Virus record (IMG/VR): IMGVR_UViG_3300017727_000180
Span: 1-22,584 of that record
Direction: 5' to 3' (one strand)
From: a virus
Length of the DNA: 22,584 nucleotides
Shown here: positions 1 through 22,584 of the stretch, in pieces
Layout of the letters: each line of letters opens with the position of its first letter
How positions within the stretch are numbered: the stretch's first letter is position 1
Notes under the pieces: model-generated
Told to the model about the DNA's origin: nothing
The model's input: the letters and a program-made list of their open reading frames with translations, nothing else
Database searches by the model: none
Program-made: the position numbers and the translations under genes

Positions 1-61
1 TGTTAGTATTAGGATCTCTGACTAAATCAGGATGATCTTTTACAGGTATATAATCAGCCAT
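1..61 (-). CDS. Small hypothetical T4-like phage protein, N-terminus only (partial)
   Basis: Only the first 20 codons are inside the window; the gene continues beyond base 1. The ATG (bases 61 to 59) overlaps the TAA stop of the 559-aa gene by one base (TAATG), as at several other junctions in this operon, which supports it as a real, translationally coupled start. The visible N-terminus reads MADYIPVKDHPDLVRDPNTN. From memory, small proteins with a similar start follow the fibre/baseplate block in marine T4-like phages, but I cannot assign a function and the rest of the protein is not visible. Confidence 0.6.
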   Translation of the reverse strand, partial: MADYIPVKDHPDLVRDPNTN

Positions 62-1740
62 TAAGATGTTGCTATTGTTCTCAAGTTTTTGAATCTTGGA
101 AATCTAGTAGACTTCTCAGCATTCATTGTTATTTTTATTTGATACTCATCAAAATCAGCAAGATCAAAGACGTTAAACTCGTATTCAACAAACCTAAGTA
201 GATTATCATTAGGTGGAATATCGTTATAACTATTGCCTTTAGTGACTTTAATATCTTTTGTGAAAGCTGTCCAATCTTGATCGATCAATCTGTCTCCTGA
301 AGAACTTAAGCTTGTTCTAAACCACACATCAAAGTCAGCCCCTATAGGTCTAACCGCATCAACTAAAGCCACAATAGAAGTAGATGAGTTTGATAGTGTG
401 TAAGGAATACTAATGTGCTTACTTGCGTTTGTGCCACCATTAGCTGCAGTTTCAGGAACATACGGAACAGTTGTAATATAGTTTCTATCTGTTCTAGTGC
501 CACCCGCCAATGCACTATCTTGTTGATGATCAATAAAATAAGAAAGTGTTTCTAGTCTAGTATTATTAACATTAAAGTAAGGTGCTACGTTAGCATCATT
601 GGTATTCATATTAATGGTCATTAGTGTTGAGGCATTTCCACTAAGTTTTCCAACCTCTTGTGCTCTTGCAGCAATAACAGCAGGTTCAGTAAGCAATGTA
701 GGATTTTGTAAACTAGCTCTTTGATTTGTAAGAGCATCATATCCTGTGTCTGCATCTTGCCAATCGCCTATTGTTGTAAAGTTGCCAGTAGCATTAATGG
801 CAGTACCGACAGGTGATGAATATTGTACGTTAAGCATAAACTCATCTATTTCATTTTGCTCTGTAGCATATAATCCTGTGCCACCCGCTCTAATAGAGGA
901 TGTTGCATTACCTGAATCCATTTTGAATGTATATCCAAAAGGATCTGCTGCAGTAATAGTTCTTTGTCCAAGAATACTACTACCCTTAACTCCATTTACT
1001 GTTGAAGATGAATCAAACCCTGTAGCATCTGTACTCAGAGTAACAACATCACCTACTCTAAATCCATGTGCAGGATGAAGAACTGAAAGATCAGAATCTC
1101 CTGCTGTAAACCTCAGGGGATCATAAACATAATCAGCAAGTTGATTTTGAATTAAACTTTCTGTAAGTTTTTTCTTACCAGGAACATTCACTTGAAGTTT
1201 TGCTGTAGCAGTTGTTGTCGTATCGAACTGTGCTTTATAAACTTTAAATGTTAAATCCTTTGAGTTATCGCCTTCCCACGTGGTTCCGTTAGATGATGCA
1301 TACAAAGAGCCTCTTGAAACATTAACACCTGAGTTATATCTAGCAGTTGTGGTTCCAAATAAGAACTCTCCATTTTCACCGAAATATACTTTATAAGAAT
1401 CTCCTGTGGCAGAACTGTATATACAGACTGCTAATAAAGTATTTCTAGGAACATATATTGGAGAGGTAAACTGAAACTTATATTCTGTTGCAGCCGAAAA
1501 TGCAGTTGCTGCCTTGGCCCCAATCTGTGCAGCAGTTGCTACTACTCTACTTCCCGGGACATATCTCTTAGCTGAAGGTTGTCCACCTTCAGTTGTTGGT
1601 CTAAGCTCTAAGGTTATAGGAAGATTGGGATCTGCAGAATGAAAGAATATTCCGATACCCGTCAACACGCTTGCTTCGTCAACGACAAAGGTTTGTGCTG
1701 TGGGAGATTTTTGCTCTGTTAGTTGTAAAATACCTGTCAT
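61..1740 (-). CDS. Fibre/baseplate structural protein, C-terminal module of a DUF4815-type protein (559 aa)
   Basis: A 559-residue virion protein rich in Ser, Thr, Asn and Gly. Residues about 15 to 170 form the module that usually lies in the C-terminal half of large DUF4815-type proteins of marine T4-like phages: a 'QTFVVDE..LTGIGIFF' strand, then 'P.TLELRP...GQPSAKRYVPGS', then a 'F.SPIYVP' strand and 'GSLYASSNGTTW'. The rest is beta-rich with no motif I recognise and no visible enzyme residues. A strong ribosome site (GGGGAG) lies inside the end of the upstream 255-aa gene, about 8 bases before the ATG; the stop-to-start gap is 3 bases. I infer a peripheral baseplate or fibre component that works with the 255- and 985-aa products. 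Exact placement in the particle is unknown. Confidence 0.72.
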   Translation of the reverse strand: MTGILQLTEQKSPTAQTFVVDEASVLTGIGIFFHSADPNLPITLELRPTTEGGQPSAKRYVPGSRVVATAAQIGAKAATAFSAATEYKFQFTSPIYVPRNTLLAVCIYSSATGDSYKVYFGENGEFLFGTTTARYNSGVNVSRGSLYASSNGTTWEGDNSKDLTFKVYKAQFDTTTTATAKLQVNVPGKKKLTESLIQNQLADYVYDPLRFTAGDSDLSVLHPAHGFRVGDVVTLSTDATGFDSSSTVNGVKGSSILGQRTITAADPFGYTFKMDSGNATSSIRAGGTGLYATEQNEIDEFMLNVQYSSPVGTAINATGNFTTIGDWQDADTGYDALTNQRASLQNPTLLTEPAVIAARAQEVGKLSGNASTLMTINMNTNDANVAPYFNVNNTRLETLSYFIDHQQDSALAGGTRTDRNYITTVPYVPETAANGGTNASKHISIPYTLSNSSTSIVALVDAVRPIGADFDVWFRTSLSSSGDRLIDQDWTAFTKDIKVTKGNSYNDIPPNDNLLRFVEYEFNVFDLADFDEYQIKITMNAEKSTRFPRFKNLRTIATS

Positions 1741-1743
1741 AAT

Positions 1744-2511
1744 CTATTCTCCCCAACCATCTGCATCAAAACTGCCTTTGAAACTGTTTGAAGTAGTCAT
1801 GGCAGATACTGTAGCCGCAAGTGTTGATGCTTTTGGCTTCCATACAGTTCTAGAGGCAACTTGTAAAGATGTCCAACTACTACTATTGTCATTGGATGAA
1901 CTCCCACCACCATCATTATCAGCGTAGTAAACACTTTCAAAATACGAATAATTTTCACTCACCTGAACTTCTTCAGTTGTAGTATACTCGTACCAATCCT
2001 CATACTGACCTTGAGAATAAAACTTTGCTGCAGCATATGATAGTGCTTCATTCCTGTTTAGCACAGAAACATCTAATGCCGAAAAGTTTGTACCGTCAGT
2101 GTTAATAGGCCAGTTTAAATCTGCATTAGATTGAAGATAAAAGAATCCTTTTATGGAACCATCTGCAGAGCTAGTTAAAGCATTATCTCCACCACCATTC
2201 GTTGCACCACCTAAATCAGCAGGGAACCCTGTTGCGGTAACATAGGAGTCTCCTGGTTCTTTGATTGAAGAAGTTCTAGCAGCATCAGTATAATCAGATA
2301 GACTGTACGAAGTGTTGCAATATCTAGTCACTTGTTTGTTGCCATAAAATATCCAATGAGGTATATTTGGACGCATGCCTTGAAACTCAAAAAAGAATAT
2401 TTTGGGTCTATGTATCTCTATTTCAGTATATCCAAGCCTATCCTGTTTTACAATATCTCTCGATTTTGTAACGTTTCTAGTACCTGATCTTTTTACCTGT
2501 CTATATGGCAT
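1744..2511 (-). CDS. Fibre/baseplate structural protein, middle module of a DUF4815-type protein (255 aa)
   Basis: The N-terminal half has a recognisable pattern: 'IEIHRPKIFFFEFQGMRPN', followed by 'YGNKQVTRYC'. This corresponds to the segment '..IR...V.F...GLRPNT..Y.FFDG.DV..YC' found inside long DUF4815-type proteins of marine T4-like phages. Later come an acidic/Ser-rich stretch and 'ALSYAAAKFYSQGQYE', matching the 'SYA...Y.SQG' element of the same proteins. No catalytic motif is seen. The start has its own Shine-Dalgarno (AAGGT) 16 bases after the 985-aa gene. It is therefore a true separate gene, not a frameshifted fragment. Role inferred: structural linker or adaptor in a fibre-like complex with its two neighbours. 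Confidence 0.7.
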   Translation of the reverse strand: MPYRQVKRSGTRNVTKSRDIVKQDRLGYTEIEIHRPKIFFFEFQGMRPNIPHWIFYGNKQVTRYCNTSYSLSDYTDAARTSSIKEPGDSYVTATGFPADLGGATNGGGDNALTSSADGSIKGFFYLQSNADLNWPINTDGTNFSALDVSVLNRNEALSYAAAKFYSQGQYEDWYEYTTTEEVQVSENYSYFESVYYADNDGGGSSSNDNSSSWTSLQVASRTVWKPKASTLAATVSAMTTSNSFKGSFDADGWGE

Positions 2512-2527
2512 TTCTTTACCTTATTTT

Positions 2528-5485
2528 CTAATATGCTGCGCCAGTACTTATTGTAATAGTACCTTGAGAACTTATTTCGGTTGTACCATCAGGCAACAAC
2601 GATGAGTTAGATTGTGATGAATATGATTTATCAACAACACGTTTATTAGTCCAATAATCTCCATCAGGTGTTAGTTCTGCAGAACCAATACTTTGAGGAA
2701 TATCGAACTGATTAACTGGTACTACTCCTGTAGCCTCTTCTTGTCCAAAGTCTGCAACAACTTCAGTATATGTAGGCCAAATATTATTACCTTTTATCAC
2801 ACAAGTGTTTAGAGATAAATCAGAATCATACGTTAATCCGATAGATTTATTAAAATATAATGGAAGAAGTTGTTGTGCATCGTTTTGTAATGTTGCTCTA
2901 TAATCATCATTAGACCAATCTGATTGTAACACAGCGTCAAAATTATCTCCTGTGATACCTTCAGTCTGTCTAATGAATGTGGCGTCATTAGGATCATACA
3001 CTTCTAAACTAGCAAGCTGTGCTTCTAATAAAGTAAGTGTTGATATTCTTTCAACATTAGAAATTCTGTTCTCTAGATCACGTAAGTCTTCCATCTTAAA
3101 TCCACGATTGTCATATCGTGTTACATTTAAATCTTCTTCATTGAACGTAAATGGATTTAACGAAATATTATAAAGAGCCATGTCTTTTCTAGGTATTCCT
3201 GTAGGCATTTCCATTTCATATGAAGAAGCACCCTGATGATAACCTAACGTTCCCGAAGAAGTTAATGTCAGTACGTCATTTCGTGGCAACCAGTACTTCG
3301 CAGTTCCTACTGAAAGCGTTGATTGATTTTTAGGAAGATCCTCAATACGTGCGATACCACCAGAGAAGGTTTCATTTGCAGGATTTTGCAAAGGTCTCAT
3401 ATCAATCACATCTGCTAAGTGAATAGTTTCATTCAATGTTGTAGTATATTTTGGAATTTCGCTAAAGGTAACATCACCATACGATGCAGCACCTGCAAAA
3501 TATCCTGTTCCTGAAGGTGTGCTATGCTCAAAATATTTGTATTGTACTGTTACATTACCTGCAGGTACAGCAACTCCTGATTTTAAAGTTCCTTTTCCTG
3601 GGCCATAAAAGTTATCTCTCTGACCATTATCTAAAACAAACTTGTAAGTAATATCCTCATTTGTTGTTGCATCAGTGATTTTATAAAATCTAAAAATGTC
3701 AGCTTTGGCAAGAGTAAACACGCCACTACTTAAGGCAATAGTTTCAGATTCCCAATCATTTGCAGCCGTACTAGGCTTCAGAGATTTATTCTTACGAACA
3801 AGAGTTTTATTCTGATATGCAATCACATGCCCTGTACCATTATCAGGTCCAGAGATTGTTGCTTGTGTATTGCCTCCACTTAATACCACAGTTGGAGTAG
3901 TCAACTCTCCATCACCGTCTACCTGATAAATCCAATCATCAGTTTCTGTGAAAGTATCAGAACCTGCGTTGATTACCACAGTTGATGCTGTTTTGTTTGT
4001 TGTATATACAGTACCAATAACTGCTGTCACAGATGATACTTCTTGAACTCTGGAATTAGGAAGTCTAAATAAAAGATTATTTTCTTCTTTATTATAAACA
4101 TCATATCTATTCTGAATAGCTTTTAAGTTAGCATAGTTAGTAGCATTAACACCAATACTTCTAATATCACCAATACCGTTAGCAGAAGGATTTGTCAACT
4201 GTATATCAAATAAATGAATACGATAATCAGACTGTGCTGTATATAAGCCTCTTACACGTGCAGTACCAATATTACTACCACCTCTATCTACAGCAGTATA
4301 AAGGTTTACTTCAGTGACATCTTCAATATATCCAACCAATCCATAAGCACTATCTGCAACAACATAGTTACCAATATTAGCGCCAACCTTTTCGGTAGTC
4401 TTTACTTTAAGATCTGAAGTAAGACTTCTAGGTTTTGCTACACGAATGGGTAAATTGAAATCTCTTTCAACACGTGATCCGTTAACAAATGCAGTACCGC
4501 CTGATACTTTAAAACTTAAGAAGTCATCGTCACTATCTTTTTCTATAGTTAAGTCAAACTCACCTGAAGAACTTTGTTCAATAAAGTTACCTGTTTGAGA
4601 AAAGGTTCTTGCGTCAATAAGATTTCCTATCTTAGATAGGATTTTATCAGGTGTTTTTACAAGAGAAACTTGTCCGTTACGAACTCTATAGACTTCATAA
4701 AATGTATCACTGGCAGCAATGGTATCTTTCGTTGTCAAAGTTAAAACAATTCTAAGACGATCTGCACCAGGAGATGTTAAGTTAGGAGTACTTCCTGAGT
4801 TATCAAAAAGTGCAATATTATCTGCAGTAGTGACAATATCTTCAGTCACTTTAAATCCTATAACTCCTGTGAAATCAGGAGAATATTTTGAAAGAACTAA
4901 TGTCTGAGACTCAACCATAACTAGGTGATTGGCGGCAAACGTGTCAAACTGAGGAACTTCAGCAATAGATGCTTTCCCAACAGCATCGTTGACAGACTGA
5001 ATAGTAATATTACCTAAACTTGTAGTAAGGGTTGTACCTGCAACAAAAGGTTTAGACACGGTAGTATTAGTTGCTGTAGAGGCTCCACCAGATTGACCTT
5101 TTGTCATTTTTACAAATATGGTATCAGGATCACTACCTTCAGCAGGAAGAACTTCCTTTACTATTGCAAATAGATCTCCATCATTTATCTCAGTGCCTTT
5201 TAGTTGAGCATAGCCAACAGGTAAAGAGTTAACCTTAAGATAAGTATATGAGAATGCATTAACACCAGAGGCTAAGTTACCACTATTATTGAAAATAGCA
5301 CCTTCATTAACAATGAACTTAGAAAGTCTACTCAGTTCTTGTTGGATAATAGACTGAGACTGTGTTAGTTCACGTGCCTGTAGTGCTCTTCCGTTATTAA
5401 ACAGAACACGATGATAATGATCACTATCTCTGAAATCATCATTGTATTCGCTTAAAAATGTTGTACTAGTGAGATTAGTAGCCAT
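2528..5485 (-). CDS. DUF4815-type baseplate/tail fibre structural protein (985 aa)
   Basis: The N-terminus, with 'YNDDFRDSDHYHRVLFNNGR' and then 'ALQARELTQSQSIIQQELSR', is the hallmark of the DUF4815 family of marine T4-like phage structural proteins: an acidic start, then a Gln-rich helix ending in '..FVNEGAIFNNSG'. The body is beta-rich with repeated 'GGSN/GG.A' turns. Around residues 860 to 960 there is the '..YRATLQND...LLPLYF' and '..YTEV...GQEEATGVVPVN' block typical of the family. The protein then stops, whereas many homologues continue into further modules; those modules follow here as two separate genes. SD AAGGG lies about 7 bases before the ATG. No enzymatic motif is visible. Probable role: trimeric or extended structural protein at the baseplate edge, possibly host contact (inference). 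Confidence 0.8.
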   Translation of the reverse strand: MATNLTSTTFLSEYNDDFRDSDHYHRVLFNNGRALQARELTQSQSIIQQELSRLSKFIVNEGAIFNNSGNLASGVNAFSYTYLKVNSLPVGYAQLKGTEINDGDLFAIVKEVLPAEGSDPDTIFVKMTKGQSGGASTATNTTVSKPFVAGTTLTTSLGNITIQSVNDAVGKASIAEVPQFDTFAANHLVMVESQTLVLSKYSPDFTGVIGFKVTEDIVTTADNIALFDNSGSTPNLTSPGADRLRIVLTLTTKDTIAASDTFYEVYRVRNGQVSLVKTPDKILSKIGNLIDARTFSQTGNFIEQSSSGEFDLTIEKDSDDDFLSFKVSGGTAFVNGSRVERDFNLPIRVAKPRSLTSDLKVKTTEKVGANIGNYVVADSAYGLVGYIEDVTEVNLYTAVDRGGSNIGTARVRGLYTAQSDYRIHLFDIQLTNPSANGIGDIRSIGVNATNYANLKAIQNRYDVYNKEENNLLFRLPNSRVQEVSSVTAVIGTVYTTNKTASTVVINAGSDTFTETDDWIYQVDGDGELTTPTVVLSGGNTQATISGPDNGTGHVIAYQNKTLVRKNKSLKPSTAANDWESETIALSSGVFTLAKADIFRFYKITDATTNEDITYKFVLDNGQRDNFYGPGKGTLKSGVAVPAGNVTVQYKYFEHSTPSGTGYFAGAASYGDVTFSEIPKYTTTLNETIHLADVIDMRPLQNPANETFSGGIARIEDLPKNQSTLSVGTAKYWLPRNDVLTLTSSGTLGYHQGASSYEMEMPTGIPRKDMALYNISLNPFTFNEEDLNVTRYDNRGFKMEDLRDLENRISNVERISTLTLLEAQLASLEVYDPNDATFIRQTEGITGDNFDAVLQSDWSNDDYRATLQNDAQQLLPLYFNKSIGLTYDSDLSLNTCVIKGNNIWPTYTEVVADFGQEEATGVVPVNQFDIPQSIGSAELTPDGDYWTNKRVVDKSYSSQSNSSLLPDGTTEISSQGTITISTGAAY

Positions 5486-11492: not shown

Positions 11493-11500
11493 TATTTATA
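11493..11500 (-). promoter_or_regulatory. T4-type late promoter before gp25
   Basis: The minus strand reads TATAAATA, a perfect late octamer, 23 bases before the gp25 ATG. It overlaps the last five bases of the spike/peptidase gene (stop at 11496). With the usual T4 spacing, transcription would start near 11486, giving a leader of about 16 bases that still includes the GAGAAG ribosome site. It would let the wedge block gp25-gp6-gp7 be made independently of the hub genes. Confidence 0.7.
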
Positions 11501-13940
11501 ATGATTTTGCGAAGGAAACATCAAAACCTGCGTTCCAAGTTCCTGCAGATCCTGCACCACCCTGTCTCCATGTACTCTCATCATAATGAATAAACGAAGG
11601 ATAACCACCAATACCGGGACGTATTCCTTTCGCTTTGGCATTACGCACAAGAATGCGAATGTAACGTTGATACAATGAAGAGTTTTGTGATGGGTTGATT
11701 CTCTTTCCTGCCAACAATAAGAAGTGATCTGCAGCTTCTCCTTTTGGATGGTTTTGAGTTCCAGTATCTCTTTTAGCCCTACCACCATTTGAAGTTATCT
11801 GTGCAGTATATTCCTGACCAAGTTCACGAACAGCAGACGCAATAGCATCAACAATATTTTGATTAGGCCAATTTATTCGGTCTGGTCCTCTAGAGTGAGT
11901 TACAACACCATCACTTGGTGGAATGGCAGACTGTTCTATCGCACGTGCTTCTAATGTTTCATTATCTTCTAACAAACATTCTATTAGCTCACCTTTAGAT
12001 AACAACTGTCTATTATATTCAGTAGAAACTTTTCTGTTAAATCTTCCTGTCCAGTTGTCATCAATATCAGGCATTATTAAAATAAGTCTTGCCTTTAAAA
12101 CTGGTTGATCGTTCTTGCACTCTAAAGTATCGTATGACAAAATCATTTCGTCAAAGAAACTCACATCCTTTACATACTCTGCAATATCAAACAAATCTAA
12201 GTTGTTTTCTGCACCACTTTGATCCACCGCTTTGTATACAACAGCCTTGCCTTTAGCTTTTAAATCGTTTATACTTTTTGGTGTTATTACTTCAGATGGA
12301 CCAGGTTTATAAATGCCTTCTGATACAACTAGATTTATACCTTTAAACCTATCAGTATTAGTTTGCACCTTTTTTAAAATAAGACTGTGCAGGTATAGGT
12401 TTCTAGCAAGCTCTCTTTTCACAGACAATGATTTTATGAACTTAAGGTTTGTTGCATCTTCTGATCCCAAAAACTTTGCTATGGTAATATTGTCCGACAA
12501 CTTAGTTTTTATAGTGATATCATCTTGCTTCAGAGGATTGTACTTATCTTCAGGAACAATACTTACTACATTGTTTTTGGGTATATATGTTGCAGCAAGT
12601 CTAGGCGAGTAAATACTTACAGGCTTATTACCTAAGATAGGAGTAGACTCTTGCTTTACTGTTCTACCAATCCGTTTAGGGGTTGGATTATTATATTCAG
12701 AACAAATAAGATTTTCTTTAAGTAGTTGGCCCATAAACTGAGTGTTGCCTAAGTTAGCAGCATCTCGTAGCTTTGATCTAGCCTTGGCAGTAGTCATATC
12801 TCCTGTAGAAATACCGCCATAATCTTTTGACTTGTCGATAAAGTTCTTTAAGTAGTCGCCCTTGTCAATGATCACCTTACGAATACCACCTGCTGCCTTA
12901 AGCAAGTATGTAAGAACATTTGTCGAAGTTGGCGTAGTGATAGTAGGAGTCGCAGTATTAGTAATACTACCTGCAGTTCCTGTAGCTGCTTCTCCATAGT
13001 CTTGAGACTGAGTTACTGTTGAAGTAGTCGCAGTTCCATCTAGGTCTCCATGGAATGTCGGGGCAGTGATACCTTTATCAAACACAGCGCCGTTACCCAC
13101 AAAGTCAACAGCAGTGCCACCTATGACTCCACTACCACCTTGTACAGTCATATTTTGTGCTGAAGCAGTCACGTTATCTGAAGCAATATTAATATAGTCC
13201 TGTGAGGTGATGTTCATTTCACCACTAGAGAATAAACCAACATTACCATTAACGTTATAATCAAGATTACCTTTGACATTGTGTTGATGTCCACCCAAGA
13301 ACACATCAGTAACTAAACCAGTTGAGTAGGTTGTTATTGGACCTGTAACAGAAGTCTGTAATCCGTTGCCAACATTCTTTTCTTCTGATCCCTTTACAGT
13401 CTCTACTTTATTACCATTCACTGTAACATTGTAATCTAAACAATCAACATTAAACTCTCCTACAACCTTTATGTTTAGGTTGCCTTTATATACTAGTTGT
13501 GCATCGCCTTCAACAATAACATCATTAGTACCGCCGATTATCTCAACCTTACGCTTCTTAGAACTAATGATGATACTACCATCAGGAGATAGTTCTATAC
13601 CGCTACCCTCAAAGTGCTTGATAAGGATGCGTTCATTTCCATCAGTATCATCAACTTCCCACACATGACCCTTCTCAGATTTAGATACTTGGTTTTTGCC
13701 ATAGTCTGATGAGATCTTATCGCCTGAGGATATTTCCATCCCATCGTATTGTGCAAAAAACTCTAGATCGTTTCTAGCAACGCCTCTTGCTTCTTTTGCA
13801 ATATTACTTGAAAAGAAATATCCTGTCTCAGGATACTTACCTGTAGGATCTTCAGGAAGATTTGAAACCTTATCAGACGCTCTACGATCAATAGCTTCTT
13901 GCGTAAGTGATGATAGATTATTTGGGTATACAATAGCCAT
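11496..13940 (-). CDS. Beta-helical spike (gp5C-like) protein with C-terminal M15-type peptidase domain (814 aa)
   Basis: Residues about 105 to 300 are a run of short Val/Gly/Asn repeats ('VEIIGGTNDVIVEGDAQLV', 'NLNIKVVGEFNVD', 'GNLDYNVNGNVGL'), the triangular beta-helix type seen in T4 gp5 C-terminal spikes and VgrG. 'APTFHGDLDGTA' follows. Residues about 500 to 650 include 'GINLVVSEGIYKPGPSE' and 'SINDLKAKGKAVVYKA', a conserved segment without a known function. The C-terminus carries HPKGEAAD (731 to 738), matching the zinc motif HxxGxAxD of M15 peptidases, and 'GIGGYPSFIHYD' with H785, the likely third ligand. This predicts a Zn-dependent peptidase cutting peptidoglycan cross-bridges at entry. 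T4 gp5 instead has OB, lysozyme and spike in one chain; here OB and lysozyme are in a separate gene two positions upstream. Confidence 0.82.
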   Translation of the reverse strand: MAIVYPNNLSSLTQEAIDRRASDKVSNLPEDPTGKYPETGYFFSSNIAKEARGVARNDLEFFAQYDGMEISSGDKISSDYGKNQVSKSEKGHVWEVDDTDGNERILIKHFEGSGIELSPDGSIIISSKKRKVEIIGGTNDVIVEGDAQLVYKGNLNIKVVGEFNVDCLDYNVTVNGNKVETVKGSEEKNVGNGLQTSVTGPITTYSTGLVTDVFLGGHQHNVKGNLDYNVNGNVGLFSSGEMNITSQDYINIASDNVTASAQNMTVQGGSGVIGGTAVDFVGNGAVFDKGITAPTFHGDLDGTATTSTVTQSQDYGEAATGTAGSITNTATPTITTPTSTNVLTYLLKAAGGIRKVIIDKGDYLKNFIDKSKDYGGISTGDMTTAKARSKLRDAANLGNTQFMGQLLKENLICSEYNNPTPKRIGRTVKQESTPILGNKPVSIYSPRLAATYIPKNNVVSIVPEDKYNPLKQDDITIKTKLSDNITIAKFLGSEDATNLKFIKSLSVKRELARNLYLHSLILKKVQTNTDRFKGINLVVSEGIYKPGPSEVITPKSINDLKAKGKAVVYKAVDQSGAENNLDLFDIAEYVKDVSFFDEMILSYDTLECKNDQPVLKARLILIMPDIDDNWTGRFNRKVSTEYNRQLLSKGELIECLLEDNETLEARAIEQSAIPPSDGVVTHSRGPDRINWPNQNIVDAIASAVRELGQEYTAQITSNGGRAKRDTGTQNHPKGEAADHFLLLAGKRINPSQNSSLYQRYIRILVRNAKAKGIRPGIGGYPSFIHYDESTWRQGGAGSAGTWNAGFDVSFAKSL

Positions 13941-13941
13941 A

Positions 13942-15438
13942 CTAGTTTCCTAAACCATCTATTATTTGTTTTTGCGTTAAAGGTTCTGACTTTCTTGGAT
14001 CATAGCCCTTTATATTTTCTTTTCCAAACCAAATCCTTGCAGCATTTTGCACATCCCACCATGGGGATTCTGTTGTACTTAGAATATCATATAATCCTAG
14101 TGTCTGTATGCCCGGTTTTACATTGTAAATAGCTTCCATAAGTTTTTTTACTGTTTTTATTTGTGATGAGTTTACTTTCCATTCAAGTTCTTCAAGAGCA
14201 ATCAATATAGTTCTTTCAGAATGATCTGGGAGTTCGCCATAATACATCCCCGTACCTTTTATATCTAACGGTCTACCTCTATATGTAACACCTGCCTGAT
14301 CTATGAAAAAATGAGGTTCAAATCCTTGATTGTGATCACTAACAAATACTTGATGATACCCTTCAATAGTACCCTTTCCGTCAGAAGCAGATACATTCCA
14401 TGCTTCCCAAACCATTTGTGTAACATCTCTTTTTAGATTTGCGACTTCAGTTTCAACTTCTGATATGTCTTCAATAGAATCAAATATTTTTGTATTAATG
14501 TCTGTTGTACTTTCTCTCCAAACATTAATATAATCATCAGTTCTTTTTGTGGGTATGTCTACGCTAACTGCAGTTGGTTCTAATGCTTTAGACGCTCTGT
14601 TATCTATTTTAAGTATGACTTCCCGTAACTCTGCGTCTGGTTTGTCTGAATACTTTTTCAATATAGAAACAGCTTTATCTATATTACCCTTTTGTCTAAG
14701 CTCGACAATATCCTTTATATCATTAGATGGAATGGTTAATAAAACATCTCCCTTTTTAGCCACAGATCCTAAGAGATTTTCTGTTGACTGAAAAGTATTT
14801 TCAACAAGATTTTCAACCAAACCAGAAAATCCAGAAAAAGAGTTTTTTATTAATTTATCTAAAGACGATACTTGACTTAGAACTGTGCTTGATGCCAATG
14901 AAGATAATCCTTTAGTTGTATTTAAAACATCTCCTAGTACATTGTCAAGTATATTATCTCTTGCAAGTTCTGTCACAACATTACTACCAACAATATTTGT
15001 TATTTCGTCTGAGCTTGCTGTAGTAGTTGACTTAACAACCTCTGCCAAAGCTTCAGGAAATGGGGCAGAGATTGCAACATCTAAAAATCCGTTTGCCGAA
15101 AGTCTACTATCACCTGTAATGGTAGATAAATCTGTAGCATCAGACCCAACCTTTTTTACCAGTTCGTCTTTCTTGGCACTAGAGTCTAACTGTACCACAC
15201 CAACTTTCTTTTTTATCTGACTAGGAACTGATCCATCAACACCCGATATTATGTCTTTATCAGAGCTAGTGACACTTTTGAACCCCCCTGATGTAGAGTT
15301 ATCAGGTTTATACTTAAAGCTAAATGCCGTGTCAAAAACTTCATTTAATATATTAGTTTTTTTACTAGAGGATTCTAGATCTAATAATCTTTCTATAGCA
15401 TTGATACCGTCCTGCAACTTCTCCTTTGGTAATGACAT
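13942..15438 (-). CDS. Baseplate hub-associated protein with degenerate amidase-like (PGRP-fold) C-terminal domain (498 aa)
   Basis: Residues 1 to about 290 are Ser/Asp/Lys-rich and helical, with no motif I recognise. Residues about 340 to 465 align without difficulty to N-acetylmuramoyl-L-alanine amidases of the T7 lysozyme type: 'EPHFFIDQAGVTYRGRP' (T7: GYHFIIKRDGTVEAGRD), 'ILIALE', 'SSQIKTVKKLMEAIY', and 'LGLYDILSTTESPWWDV' (T7: LRAHHEVAPKACPSFDL). All three zinc ligand positions appear changed: His to Asn348, His to Tyr450 or Asp451, and Cys to Ser458; the catalytic Tyr before 'HF' is Pro375. The domain is therefore probably not an active amidase and may bind peptidoglycan or serve as a structural part of the hub. 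The ATG overlaps the stop of the lysozyme gene (TAATG), and it ends one base before the spike gene. Confidence 0.72.
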   Translation of the reverse strand: MSLPKEKLQDGINAIERLLDLESSSKKTNILNEVFDTAFSFKYKPDNSTSGGFKSVTSSDKDIISGVDGSVPSQIKKKVGVVQLDSSAKKDELVKKVGSDATDLSTITGDSRLSANGFLDVAISAPFPEALAEVVKSTTTASSDEITNIVGSNVVTELARDNILDNVLGDVLNTTKGLSSLASSTVLSQVSSLDKLIKNSFSGFSGLVENLVENTFQSTENLLGSVAKKGDVLLTIPSNDIKDIVELRQKGNIDKAVSILKKYSDKPDAELREVILKIDNRASKALEPTAVSVDIPTKRTDDYINVWRESTTDINTKIFDSIEDISEVETEVANLKRDVTQMVWEAWNVSASDGKGTIEGYHQVFVSDHNQGFEPHFFIDQAGVTYRGRPLDIKGTGMYYGELPDHSERTILIALEELEWKVNSSQIKTVKKLMEAIYNVKPGIQTLGLYDILSTTESPWWDVQNAARIWFGKENIKGYDPRKSEPLTQKQIIDGLGN

Positions 15439-16367
15439 TAACCTGCTCCTGACGATATTAAGTTGTTTTCTGCAGACGCCCTTAAAGAAGCTTGGTAACC
15501 ATCATATGCTTCTCTTGCTGCCAAAGGTCTTCTTGGATAACCTTCTTCTGCAGCCCTTTCATATCTACGAAAGAAATGATAGGTAGAGTTCAAATCATTT
15601 TTTGGTCCATCAAAGTTAGATATATTGGCAGGGTTACTTAAATGATCCCAACACCTATGAGTGCGATTTGTTTTCATATCAAATATAAGGAACTTTAACT
15701 GTAAGAACAAATCATATGGATCTTCATTTAGTTCTGAAGCATATGCTTCTACGCTTTGCCACCTTCCCCATTTAGAGTTCCACTGAGCTATACCTCTAGA
15801 ATCCTCTATTTCGTTTTGAAGTTTGGCATTCGGATCAAAGTTACTTTCAACCTCTAAGTTTCCACACACTCCTGCTGCAGCTTTTATCGGTAGACCATTG
15901 CTAACTAGAAAGTCCATAACAAGAACCCTCAACTCTGCAACTTCTGCATTCCCGTTCCTGTAGATTTGCTTTTGCTGTTCAGTGACAATAACACCTTCTT
16001 TACCAATGTTCTTTGTGTCTAGAAGATTAACTCTTCCACCTTCTGCAGCCGCCCTTACCTGTGGTGAAGATGGTTGTTCTATGTGGCTCATTGATCCAAG
16101 TATAATAGGACTTTGAGAGGTCATGCCATCTAAAAAGAAACCAAATACTAACGCACTATTTTTTAGTTGTGGTATTTTACCTACGCCCGACACGCCACCT
16201 TCTGTAGTTGGTAACATCGTTTCTGCCCAAGGTAAGTATTTGTTTTCAACTTCTTCAGAGTGAATACCATATATTCTAACTTGAAACCTTCCAGCCTCAT
16301 CAGGATCTTGACCACTAATAATCCTACCAACAAACCATCGGATATTGTCACCATAATATTCGTTCAT
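15438..16367 (-). CDS. gp5: gp5-like baseplate hub OB-fold with tail lysozyme domain (309 aa)
   Basis: Residues 8 to about 95 form the gp5/VgrG OB fold: 'WFVGRIISGQDPDEAGRFQV' then 'RIYGIHSEE', 'LPWAETMLPTTEGGVSGVGK', and 'ALVFGFFLDGMTSQSPIILG'. Residues about 145 to 290 are a tail lysozyme domain: 'GLPIKAAAGVCGNLEVESNF' with the likely catalytic Glu174 in the GNLxxES motif, and 'GIAQWN' at 192 to 197. This protein would sit on the gp27 ring and degrade peptidoglycan during tube entry. T4 gp5 has 575 residues and ends in the beta-helical spike; this protein stops after the lysozyme domain, and the beta helix is in the 814-aa gene. It overlaps the hub gene upstream by 4 bases (ATGA), so the two are probably coupled for stoichiometry. 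Confidence 0.87.
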   Translation of the reverse strand: MNEYYGDNIRWFVGRIISGQDPDEAGRFQVRIYGIHSEEVENKYLPWAETMLPTTEGGVSGVGKIPQLKNSALVFGFFLDGMTSQSPIILGSMSHIEQPSSPQVRAAAEGGRVNLLDTKNIGKEGVIVTEQQKQIYRNGNAEVAELRVLVMDFLVSNGLPIKAAAGVCGNLEVESNFDPNAKLQNEIEDSRGIAQWNSKWGRWQSVEAYASELNEDPYDLFLQLKFLIFDMKTNRTHRCWDHLSNPANISNFDGPKNDLNSTYHFFRRYERAAEEGYPRRPLAAREAYDGYQASLRASAENNLISSGAG

Positions 16368-20399: not shown

Positions 20400-20984
20400 A
20401 TGGCAGATTTATTTAAGAACTTAGAAATAGAAGCGTTTCGTGCAGGTATCACCCCTAGAACAAAAGAGTCTAGGGCTTGGTTCCGTAAACGTCTAGGCGG
20501 TATTCGTAAAATGAACCGTAACGATGTAATGAAAGATGATTCATTAAAGTTAGTCAACAGGCAACTAGTTGGATCAATGCAGATGTTTTTCTATGACCCA
20601 AAACATAAAGACACGTTACCCTACTATGATGCATTCCCTTTGACTATTGTGATTGGTCCTGCTAAAGGTGGCTTCCTTGGTTTGAACTTACATTACCTAC
20701 CAATGGCACTAAGAGCAAAGTTCTTGGATGCTCTGATGGATGTGACAACTAACGACAAGTTCAATGAAAGCACACGCTTTGATGTAACCTATGATATGCT
20801 AAAGTCTGCTGCAAAATACAAATACTTTAAACCTTGTGTAAAGCATTACTTGACAACTCATGTTAGAAGTCGGTTTGCTAGGATACCTGCACCTGAATGG
20901 GAAATCGCAACGTTCTTACCCACTGCTTCTTGGCAGAAGGGAACAGGTACGCAAGTGTACAGAGACTCTAAGAGGATGATTTAA
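20400..20984 (+). CDS. Conserved T4-like phage protein of unknown function (194 aa)
   Basis: I recognise the type from T4-like phages but cannot name its function with confidence. Features: a basic N-terminal 45 residues (RTKESRAWFRKRLGGIRKMN), the core 'MFFYDPKHKDTLPYYDAFPL' then 'TIVIGPAKGGFLGLNLHYLP', helices, 'FKPCVKHYLTTHVRSRFARI' and 'WEIATFLPTASWQ'. No enzymatic motif, membrane segment or signal peptide is visible. It lies between gp4 and a tail tube-type gene, so a role in head or tail completion is likely; in T4, genes 3 and 2 lie next to gene 4, so gp2 (DNA end protector) or gp3 (tail terminator) equivalents are possibilities suggested only by synteny. No ATG occurs upstream in frame, and the start lacks a Shine-Dalgarno site. 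Confidence 0.75.
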   Translation: MADLFKNLEIEAFRAGITPRTKESRAWFRKRLGGIRKMNRNDVMKDDSLKLVNRQLVGSMQMFFYDPKHKDTLPYYDAFPLTIVIGPAKGGFLGLNLHYLPMALRAKFLDALMDVTTNDKFNESTRFDVTYDMLKSAAKYKYFKPCVKHYLTTHVRSRFARIPAPEWEIATFLPTASWQKGTGTQVYRDSKRMI

Positions 20985-21703
20985 TGGCTAGTGTCGATCA
21001 ATTAAAAAGCTTAGTGTCTAGAAAAGATGGTATAGCACGTCCAAATGTATTCAGGGTTAAGCTACCAACAATCCCTGGTGCTACCTCCGAAGAAGTAAAC
21101 TTGCTCTGTAAGGACGTTATATTGCCCGGTAAGCAGGTTCTGACGAATGAACGCAGGATTGGTATGCAAATGCAGAAGGTTCCTTATGGGTATGCCGTTA
21201 CAGACATTTCCATGACCTTTCAAGTTCTAAATGATTATGGTATACGAAAGTACTTTGATACTTGGCAAAGTCTTGCTGTAGATCAGGATGGTCAGACAGC
21301 AGGATATCTCAGAGGCAAAGAAGGATACGGAAAACAGATTGTGATTGAACAGTTGAAGAAAGGTATTGGTCTTCCTGTCTACTCCACACCTCTTGGCATT
21401 CCTAAACTGCCATCAGAAATACAAAATAGATTACCTAAGTTTGGTCCTATTGATCTTGCACAAGGTCAGTTTGACTTGGACTTTGTTACAGGTGATGATG
21501 TAATATATTCGTGTACGTTGTTTGACGCATTCCCTACCACCATGAACGACATTCAGTTGAACAATGATATTGATGGTGTCGTGGAGTTGAATGTGCAAAT
21601 GTCGTATACAAAATGGATTCCAAATGAAGTTGAAGCTACAAGTAATATAGAAAAGTTTTTGACAACTCAAATAGGAACAGCAATAGGAAGAGTATTTAAT
21701 TAA
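20984..21703 (+). CDS. Tail tube-type protein, gp19/gp54 family (239 aa)
   Basis: The pattern 'ARPNVFRVKLP' then 'NLLCKDVILPGKQVLTNERR', 'YGYAVTDISMTFQVLNDYGI' and 'KYFDTWQSLAVDQ' is that of phage tail tube folds (T4 gp19: ARPNLFQVEI..., FQCKATALPAG, WTVTVMND, FVDWQSIA). The C-terminal 'SCTLFDAFPTTMNDIQLNND' then 'IDGVVELNVQMSYTKW' matches the tube 'a.P..i..i.l......i..f.V...Y..W' ending. At 239 aa it is longer than T4 gp19 (163) owing to a loop rich in Gly, Pro and Leu (about residues 105 to 160). It may be the major tube protein, a tube paralogue, or the gp54 tube initiator; the neighbourhood (gp4, gp26) does not decide. The start overlaps the previous stop (TAATG), with GAGG upstream. Confidence 0.75.
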   Translation: MASVDQLKSLVSRKDGIARPNVFRVKLPTIPGATSEEVNLLCKDVILPGKQVLTNERRIGMQMQKVPYGYAVTDISMTFQVLNDYGIRKYFDTWQSLAVDQDGQTAGYLRGKEGYGKQIVIEQLKKGIGLPVYSTPLGIPKLPSEIQNRLPKFGPIDLAQGQFDLDFVTGDDVIYSCTLFDAFPTTMNDIQLNNDIDGVVELNVQMSYTKWIPNEVEATSNIEKFLTTQIGTAIGRVFN

Positions 21704-21715
21704 AGGATGAAATGA

Positions 21716-22423
21716 ATGGCACTACCTAAACTAAATGATAAACCAAAATATGAACTTGTTATACCTTCGTCACAACAGGCAGTTAGATTTAGACCATATC
21801 TCGTAAAGGAAGAGAAGGTCTTGATGTTAGCAATGGAGAGTGAGGATCAAACACAGGTCTTCAATGCTATTGCAGATACTATTGAAGCTTGTGTCGAAGA
21901 ACCGATAAGCAAAAAAGCACTGACTAGTTTTGATGTTGAATATATGTTCGTCAAAATCAGATCTAAGTCGGTAGGAGAAAATATAGAACTCAAACCTAAG
22001 TGTGAACATTGTGAAGCAGAAAATGAAGTAAAGATTATTCTTGATGACATAACTTTGGATATGCCTGATGTTGATTATGTTATAAAGTTGAACAACGATA
22101 TTAGTATTAGGATGCAGTATCCGACATACCTTAGTATTATGGATTTGGCTAGTCTTGATGTGAAGTCTAATACAGAACAAACATTTGCTATGATTTTAAA
22201 ATGTATTGAATCTGTTATGACTGAAGATGAAAATATGCCATTTAAGGATGAAAGTTATAGTTCTCAGATGGAGTTTATAGAGTCTTTGAGTTCTGAACAG
22301 TTTGATATGATTAGGAAGTTTATTGAGACCATGCCACAAGTGACCTATGATGCGTCATATGAATGTGTTGGGTGTCAAAAGAAAAATGAGTTGGTTTTGA
22401 AAGGTATGAATGATTTTTTTTAG
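21716..22423 (+). CDS. gp26: Baseplate hub assembly protein gp26, likely frameshift donor (235 aa)
   Basis: T4 gp26 is needed for central hub assembly. 'YELVIPSSQQAVRFRPYLVK' then EEKVLMLAMES at the N-terminus and 'FDVEYMFVKIRSKSVGENIE' follow the gp26 family pattern. Two CxxC pairs (Cys96/Cys99 in CEHC and Cys217/Cys220 in CVGC), each followed by a '.NE..' strand, suggest a zinc ribbon. Length 235 versus 208 in T4. The start at 21716 is chosen because AAAGGATG lies 5 to 12 bases before it; an ATG at 21712 is in another frame and stops after five codons. The last codons before the stop form an 8-T run fitting -1 slippage (see the next entry). Confidence 0.85.
   Translation: MALPKLNDKPKYELVIPSSQQAVRFRPYLVKEEKVLMLAMESEDQTQVFNAIADTIEACVEEPISKKALTSFDVEYMFVKIRSKSVGENIELKPKCEHCEAENEVKIILDDITLDMPDVDYVIKLNNDISIRMQYPTYLSIMDLASLDVKSNTEQTFAMILKCIESVMTEDENMPFKDESYSSQMEFIESLSSEQFDMIRKFIETMPQVTYDASYECVGCQKKNELVLKGMNDFF
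22400..22404 (+). promoter_or_regulatory. Internal Shine-Dalgarno-like sequence before the slippery site
   Basis: AAAGG lies 9 bases before the T-run at the end of gp26. Shine-Dalgarno-like elements at about this distance are known to stimulate -1 frameshifting (the Escherichia coli dnaX case). No start codon in a useful frame follows it, so it is unlikely to be an ordinary ribosome binding site. Confidence 0.4.
22414..22420 (+). other. Probable -1 programmed ribosomal frameshift site (T-run)
   Basis: In the gp26 frame the codons are GAT TTT TTT TAG. Bases 22414 to 22420 form T TTT TTT, a valid X XXY YYZ slippery heptamer, directly followed by the stop codon. A -1 slip gives TTT TTT TTA and opens the downstream frame. 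A stem of 8 pairs (TAACTTGG at 22440 to 22447 with TCAAGTTA at 22458 to 22465, one G-T pair) starts 19 bases later, somewhat far for a stimulator. Confidence 0.65.
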
Positions 22424-22584
22424 TATCTCTTTCCCATGATAACTTGGTGAACTACTATCAAGTTAATTTTCAGTTGATACAGAATCATAACTACTCTTTA
22501 GATGATGTTGAAAATATGATGCCTTGGGAAAGAGAAATCTACTTAGCTATGTTGATCGATCAAATAGAAGAACAAAGAAGAGAA
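22414..22584 (+). CDS. Frameshift extension of gp26, tail assembly chaperone-like (partial)
   Basis: The -1 frame relative to gp26 is open from 22414 to the window end (57 codons) and clearly coding: 'LSHDNLVNYYQVNFQLIQNH' then 'NYSLDDVENMMPWEREIYLA' and 'MLIDQIEEQRRE'. The block 'S..D.E.M..WER..Y...L..QIEEE' is the type found in the T half of tail assembly chaperones (lambda GT-like pairs) and in related T4-like proteins. This frame has a TGA stop at 22411 to 22413 and no ATG before the conserved part; the only early alternative is GTG at 22447 without a ribosome site. I infer that the product is made as a minority gp26 fusion through the T-run. The C-terminus lies outside the window; it could correspond to gp51 of T4 by position. 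Confidence 0.68.

Follow-up and report, generated by a model that had tools for sequence, protein, structure and literature searches.

A very probable programmed -1 frameshift in the gp26 chaperone gene of T4-like phages, with a conserved long-range RNA stem as its candidate stimulator

The T4-like gene gp26 and the -1 frame that opens at its end very probably form one tail assembly chaperone gene, in which a programmed slip stimulated by RNA would give both gp26 (TAC-N) and a gp26-gp51 fusion (TAC-NC). We also favor, with distinctly less assurance, a model in which a conserved stem of ~110 nt, its arms coding for L-S-H and P-W-E-R-E, drives this frameshift and was lost when T2-type Straboviridae split the isoforms. 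These proposals arose from a 22,584-base stretch of a marine relative of phage T4 (IMG/VR record IMGVR_UViG_3300017727_000180 at its full length; here, the window), the last gene of which is gp26 (21716-22423, plus strand). The 235-residue product matched PF12322 (T4_baseplate; 200.1 bits, above the gathering cut-off of 24.5; E=4.9e-59) and phrog_150 (E=1.1e-63), and would be the short form of the chaperone.

In frame 0, gp26 ends in GAT TTT TTT TAG. Eight consecutive T occur nowhere else in the window on either strand; the T-run (22414-22421) contains a slippery heptamer, T TTT TTT (22414-22420, plus strand), that adjoins the TAG stop codon (22421-22423). The -1 frame is closed just 5' of the run by a TGA (22411-22413) and is open from 22414 for 57 codons to the end of the window, 55 of them after the slip. 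By profile search, this extension (22420-22584, plus strand), the part specific to TAC-NC, matched the gp51 family (phrog_634, described as "baseplate hub assembly catalyst"; E=1.1e-23), and tblastn with an E limit of 1 found matches to it in 1386 phage records. Its -1 frame translation includes the motif MMPWEREIY (22516-22542). No ATG precedes the motif block in the -1 frame of the window, but a TTG (22444) and a GTG (22447) are present. The first-pass annotation had reported an eight-T slippery site at the gp26 stop, a -1 frame opening after the TGA for at least 57 codons with no ATG ahead of its coding block, and a motif of the MPWERE.Y type, and the sequence agrees with it on each of these points. 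The extension is cut off because the whole virus record ends there; in L002, a locus with a gp26 protein 100% identical to that of the window, the -1 frame ends 65 residues past the slip.

The first-pass annotation proposed that conservation of the T-run and the -1 frame be checked in gp26 homologues, and a survey of 290 loci (L002-L291; 263 on IMG/VR contigs, 27 from named phages) was performed. Loci were gathered by similarity to the gp26 or gp51 protein and not by the T-run, with the best 80 of 599 matches taken in one scan and the best 80 of 88 in another; some contigs were counted twice, such as L011 and L104. In 267/290 loci, T TTT TTN stood 0 to 9 codons before the gp26 stop and was followed by a gp51 extension in the -1 frame, and this recurrence places the frameshift layout beyond chance. 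All X XXY YYZ heptamers in the 267 loci were T TTT TTN, the last base being T in 108, C in 148, A in 7, and G in 4. The layout was present in 16 of the 27 named-phage stretches: C48C1, P-SSM2, S-WAM1, S-CAM4, Mosig, PVA8, S-CAM8, S-MbCM6, D479, HTVC008M, Melnitz-3, phiM7, RL2RES, S13, YB07, and phiAS5.

Other arrangements were few. A -1 extension without an X XXY YYZ heptamer was seen in 4/290 loci, namely L186, in which the gp26 frame is interrupted within the contig, and three Ackermannviridae (L100, L101, and L102). The extension was kept and the heptamer absent in all three Ackermannviridae seen, where a gp51-like -1 extension follows gp26 across the junction ATT TTC ATY TAA. The extension was in frame 0 in only 3/290 loci (T2, 44RR, and Ac42), and there the protein matched was that of a separate full-length gp51 gene. 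In nine loci gp26 ran off the contig, and in two (L086 and L090) the strand read gave no match to gp26. The extension was not found in 5/290 loci: L011 and L104, whose contigs end early, Vibrio phage D533, Pseudomonas phage PAC2, and the gp26 locus of Melville. The -1 frame is open in both D533 and PAC2, but the gp51 profile gave no match. In D533 (L098) it runs for 58 codons and contains an MPWH motif, behind a junction, CTT TTC AAG TAA, that lacks T TTT TTN. In PAC2 (L103), AGT TTT TTC lies a few codons before the stop of the gp26-like gene and the -1 frame is open for 69 codons; its sequence is possibly a diverged case of the frameshift layout. A gp51-like open reading frame of 129 residues was noted in Klebsiella phage AM_K6 (L086, 1237-1626), where it is annotated as hypothetical and joins the start and end of a T4-type gp51 with the middle missing. 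In seven loci with a -1 frame (L080, L081, L087, L088, L095, L101, and L102), the public records carry no annotated gp51 gene.

Constraint on the slippery site was examined in 93 representatives (<90% gp26 identity) drawn from the 146 evaluable loci of 155. The codon before Phe-Phe (GAT, AGT, AAT, TCT, or GCT) ended in T in 93/93, compared with the ~62 that codon usage in these genes predicts. Of the two Phe codons, the first was TTT in 93/93, compared with a 78% share of TTT among all Phe codons of these genes. Because the representatives are related, nominal probabilities for the heptamer are too small; still, there were zero exceptions in 93. The first nine -1 codons behaved as coding sequence, since differences were split 30/18/52% among codon positions 1/2/3 (1,349 pairs differing at 1 to 9 of 27 sites, the pairs being non-independent). 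Collectively, comparison of the relatives shows, at the level of sequence, a heptamer under selection, a -1 frame that is coding, and a conserved frame layout.

Three explanations other than ribosomal slippage were weighed against these data. The gp51 segment is annotated as a gene of its own in the C48C1, P-SSM2, and Mosig records, and might be a separate small protein, its translation begun independently or coupled to termination of gp26, from TTG 22444 or GTG 22447 in the window and from an ATG in P-SSM2-like phages. An ATG was indeed found in 12/93 representatives, 11 of them at codon 4 past the slip, where the P-SSM2 record places the gp51 start, and a start codon preceded the slip in 3/93. 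However, in 45/93 representatives the -1 frame contained none of the codons ATG, GTG, and TTG between its opening and ~12 codons past the slip, although the window, with its TTG and GTG, is outside this group. In addition, two features 5' of the TTG and GTG, the heptamer and the residues L-S-H, are conserved, and T2-type gp51 carries the N-terminal domain attached. A separate gp51 was rejected as very improbable. Slippage of RNA polymerase on the T-run, resulting in a mixed mRNA population, was judged just as improbable and was likewise rejected. It would be favored by the eight consecutive T of the window, but 159/267 loci have T TTT TTC, TTA, or TTG, with six T in the heptamer; six T is short for transcriptional slippage, and a stem 5 nt downstream fits slippage by the ribosome. 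Finally, a run of eight T is prone to indel errors, and a sequencing error could have disrupted a gene that is truly fused in frame. Comparison refuted this possibility, to which we assign next to no probability: the same frame relation was present in 267 loci, including isolate genomes and six-T variants, and an in-frame fusion of gp26 and the extension at this site was seen in 0/267.

The RNA downstream of the proposed ribosomal slip site (22421-22545) folded at -31.2 kcal/mol (z -3.26 versus dinucleotide shuffles). The main helix of the MFE structure consists of 11 perfect pairs between a 5' arm at 22426-22436 (codons S-L-S and part of H) and a 3' arm at 22525-22535 (codons W-E-R and part of E), both read on the plus strand. 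It starts 5 nt past the heptamer, spans ~110 nt overall, and encloses an inner hairpin. Protein and RNA constraint would fall on the same bases here, and the two were separated by synonymous codon shuffles within each genome. The arm duplex had a mean energy of -15.2 kcal/mol, compared with -9.6 kcal/mol in the shuffles (mean z -1.74; 56% of the 93 representatives below -1.5). A sliding-arm scan was then applied to 164 representatives (<95% identity) of the 266 usable loci, with offsets represented by 1 to 3 rows set aside. Mean z was -1.06 to -1.33 for windows starting between codons -5 and +1 relative to the Pro of PWERE and approximately zero through most of the extension, with a lesser dip (-0.82 and -0.66) at the second arm of the inner hairpin. 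The signal was strongest near the window, since the share of representatives with z<-1.5 fell with distance: 78% of 9 at >=60% identity, 69% of 13 at 45 to 60%, 50% of 50 at 38 to 45%, and 32% of 92 below 38%. The two outermost pairs formed in only 31 and 34 of the 93 representatives, and the core of the stem is nine pairs (22428-22436 with 22525-22533). As a negative control, T4-type full-length gp51 (23 representatives from 33 loci, one of which was too short) gave mean z values of +0.17 to +0.46 at positions -5 to +1 around the same motif, a control that is imperfect because the protein differs at the arms. Thus, comparison shows a long-range stem with signs of selection beyond the protein in the relatives and absent from T4-type full-length gp51.

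In this helix, third codon positions lie opposite one another and would carry the covariation. When 56 third-position pairs were tested, the highest Watson-Crick excesses were those of c3.3-R.3 (z 6.5) and c4.3-E1.3 (z 5.7), both predicted partners; the best non-partner pair had a z of 4.4, and a further predicted partner, c6.3-P.3, showed little excess once the set was enlarged (z 1.1). In an alignment of 45 relatives, 44 of them distinct, with at least 40% gp26 identity to L002, 82.3% of the cells of the long stem were paired. Double-changed cells numbered 24, compared with 7.4 in shuffles (0/500 as high) and 0 to 15 in slid versions. The long stem was unexceptional in how many of its pairs carried a double change (40/500 shuffles), and one slid version outscored it in covariation. 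In a separate run, neither the pairs with a double change nor the further pair types rose above the shuffles. RNAalifold, given no structure, recovered part of the long helix as six pairs, two of them with double changes, at a small consensus energy of -1.74 kcal/mol. On a tree of 159 representatives, joint changes on one branch numbered 12 for c3.3-R.3 (3.9 expected) and 10 for c4.3-E1.3 (3.5 expected), and in 5 and 5 of these cases one Watson-Crick pair replaced another. Of the non-partners, c2.3-E2.3 reached about the same ratio, with pairing preserved in none of its changes, and c6.3-E2.3 had 5 changes that preserved it. Comparison of 75 disjoint sister pairs gave no discrimination (p=0.013 and 0.034 for the partners, with several non-partners lower). 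A search of Rfam produced one match, which was under its gathering score.

Inside the long stem, the MFE fold and covariation support a hairpin of 10 pairs, two of them G-U, between 22440-22449 and 22456-22465 (22440-22465, plus strand). This is the stem that the first-pass annotation had placed 19 bases downstream; the stem is real, but it has 10 pairs and not 8, and the long-range pairing that encloses it (22426-22436 with 22525-22535) went unmentioned. In the 44 distinct relatives, 65.5% of the cells of the hairpin were paired. It held 42 of the 66 double-changed cells in total, compared with 27.1 in shuffles, of which 3/500 were as high. Consistent with local structure, the first 60 nt past the site had a mean z of -1.35 versus dinucleotide shuffles, compared with -0.28 in a control segment within gp26, across 93 representatives. 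Comparative data support both structures, candidate stimulators of the presumed slip, the long stem more and the hairpin second; the shuffle control of the hairpin was weaker (3/500 with a mean of 27.1, against 0/500 with a mean of 7.4). The Shine-Dalgarno-like word AAAGG (22400-22404, plus strand) lies 9 nt before the heptamer, as the first-pass annotation had stated, and an SD-like word was present 8 to 10 nt ahead of the heptamer in 77/93 representatives. Pairing to the anti-SD sequence was -5.91, compared with -4.89 in synonymous shuffles, in 164 representatives; since these shuffles explain most of the signal (mean z -0.76), the signal is weak, and AAAGG is a possible stimulator with weak support.

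If the frameshift is real, the long stem could still be an inert by-product of protein and codon constraint, or the local hairpin alone could matter. We consider this unlikely, although it retains an appreciable share of the probability. Its arms code for well-conserved residues, several third-position pairs that do not pair in the stem co-change above expectation on the tree, and one of these non-partners equals the partners in kept double changes. The lack of discrimination among sister pairs, the unremarkable number of pairs carrying double changes, and the higher score of one slid version point the same way. A role for the hairpin alone is consistent with its own covariation and with the z of the first 60 nt. 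However, synonymous shuffles that preserve the protein pair less well than the natural arms, the two partner pairs score highest of the 56, the double-changed cells exceed those of the shuffles and of the slid versions in the range given above, and the pairing is absent from T4-type full-length gp51.

The properties of gp26 itself and of its neighborhood were consistent with a chaperone function for the gp26-gp51 gene. An AlphaFold2 model of gp26, built from an alignment of 32 relatives, had a mean pLDDT of 86.6 and a pTM of 0.80. Among viral models, it matched gp26-type baseplate hub proteins. A Foldseek search of the PDB gave no significant E-value, with the HK97 tail assembly chaperone (2ob9) at rank 7 (E 0.37, probability 0.87), and a sequence search of the PDB gave one weak match only, to a repeat protein. 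With VIA-align, the order was 3fgx (uncharacterized; 8.2), 2ob9 (7.5), 3klu (YqbN; 6.8), and 5ir0 (4.3), followed by a drop to 2.5; 2ob9_A was thus second of the 14 entries listed, with a Z of 7.5 over 85 residues, and a Z of <8 can reflect a common arrangement. YqbN belongs to an XkdN-type chaperone family. The N-terminal part of the predicted gp26 structure may resemble the HK97 tail assembly chaperone. In the window, the gene directly upstream of gp26 encodes the tail tube (20984-21703, plus strand; phrog_45, E=3.5e-33) and is preceded by one for a gp2-like DNA end protector (20400-20984, plus strand; phrog_429, E=2.4e-52). A tape measure gene lies directly 3' of the extension in L114 (phrog_167, E=1.3e-9) and one small gene after it in the annotation of HTVC008M. 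Since the tail tube gene precedes them in the window and the tape measure gene follows in L114 and HTVC008M, gp26 and the extension occupy the classic tail assembly chaperone slot between the two. The suggestion of the first-pass annotation that gp26 is a tail or baseplate assembly chaperone, in parallel with G/GT, is supported by comparison of the slippery site and the extension across loci, and the gp26 model may be HK97-like; the parallel does not extend to T2 and its nearer kin, which use two genes instead.

These comparisons lead to the following model, in which slipping itself and its frequency, the part played by the RNA structures, and the way the chaperone works are inferred. Most ribosomes would end at the TAG and release gp26 as TAC-N. 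A minority would shift into the -1 frame at T TTT TTT, where both Phe tRNAs could re-pair in tandem, and would read onward to produce a gp26-gp51 fusion of ~300 residues, TAC-NC. Slipping would be made more frequent by the long-range stem, its enclosed hairpin, and perhaps also AAAGG, the SD-like word. If lambda G/GT is a guide, gp26 sequences would coat the tape measure protein, and gp51 sequences would bring in tail tube subunits.

In T2, 44RR, Ac42, Pm5461, and Melville, homologous short and long chaperones occur as in the window, but gp26 and gp51 are separate and divergent genes with a full-length gp51, whereas the window has both on one strand and an extension without the N-terminal domain. 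No T-run was present at the end of gp26 in the four T2-type genes viewed, and the long-range pairing was lacking in the 23 T4-type gp51 representatives. The records place these phages in the Straboviridae (T2 and Melville in Tevenvirinae, Ac42 in Twarogvirinae, 44RR in Biquartavirus, and Pm5461 in Bragavirus). The boundary between two genes and frameshift runs inside this family, since its members PVA8, S13, and phiAS5 have the frameshift layout. T2 gp26 and T2 gp51 both matched PF12322 (E=8.8e-64 and 4.3e-55). Because T2 gp51 covers phrog_150 from 13 to 280 of 282, it represents the long form as a gene of its own, a gp26-like protein plus the extension. In an unrooted tree of 29 proteins, T2-type gp26 and gp51 were separated from the other 19 with support of 96/93, which fits an origin of the two from one duplication; T2-type gp26 as a group had support of only 72/46, and the "PRF" group of the tree takes in three Ackermannviridae without a heptamer. 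Since the frameshift layout is so widespread, the change probably ran from frameshift to two genes.

The slippery site of lambda differs from T TTT TTN. The system here resembles lambda gpG/gpGT, as described by Atkins et al. (2016, PMC5009743), in its two-part chaperone, single start, and proposed -1 slip late in the short-form frame; in lambda, the two chaperone forms act on the tape measure and the tube (PMC5009743). It is unlike lambda in its T TTT TTN heptamer, its PF12322 domain, a putative slip at or shortly before the stop, and the conserved downstream RNA pairing. The same source names T4 as the exception to an otherwise wide conservation of the G-T frameshift (Atkins et al. 2016, PMC5009743). 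Our survey would narrow this apparent exception to the rule that long-tailed phages use frameshifting to produce their tail chaperone: among the phages sampled, two genes were seen only in some Straboviridae, and the frameshift layout is retained by others of that family and by the marine relatives.

Sullivan et al. (2010, PMC3037559) describe a cyanophage gp51 of ~20% the length of other gp51 proteins, without the first ~200 residues, which marine vibriophages lack too, and report a missing gp51 in Aeh1. Judged from that description, the "reduced" gp51 is the same extension as that found here. It is read there as a size reduction (PMC3037559), whereas in the reading proposed here gp26 would supply the missing part via the frameshift. 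A frameshift would explain both the shortened look of cyanophage gp51 and the lack of gp51 annotation in several records. Work by Vladimirov in 2022 is cited in the PRFect paper (PMC10885494) for T4-like phages with short and long chaperone genes and in the Adele paper (PMC12846349) in connection with TAC-N genes of T4-like phages and their poly-T frameshift signals; as so cited, these are apparently the same proteins as here. The title of Vladimirov, Gautam and Davidson (2022) argues for a non-frameshift mechanism in T4-like TACs. To judge by these citations, the T4-like chaperone frameshift seems largely to have been anticipated in print (Vladimirov 2022). Among the open-access titles and abstracts in the results listed, none concerned an RNA stem at the gp26-gp51 site, a weak negative, and we treat the long-range RNA pairing as the new part of the finding. 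The relatives present a recoded gene and its two-gene form side by side, and the proposed long-range RNA element is open to experimental test.

Two further split matches were observed elsewhere in the window, both on the minus strand. Matches to a gp5-like tail lysozyme (phrog_430, 331-611 and 14-110) are spread over two open reading frames at 11496-13940 and 15438-16367, and between them lies one of 498 residues (13942-15438) with no phrog match at E 0.001. Similarly, matches to phrog_358/877 (unknown function) within 61-5485 are split over open reading frames at 2528-5485 and 61-1740, which flank one of 255 residues (1744-2511) with no match at E 0.001.
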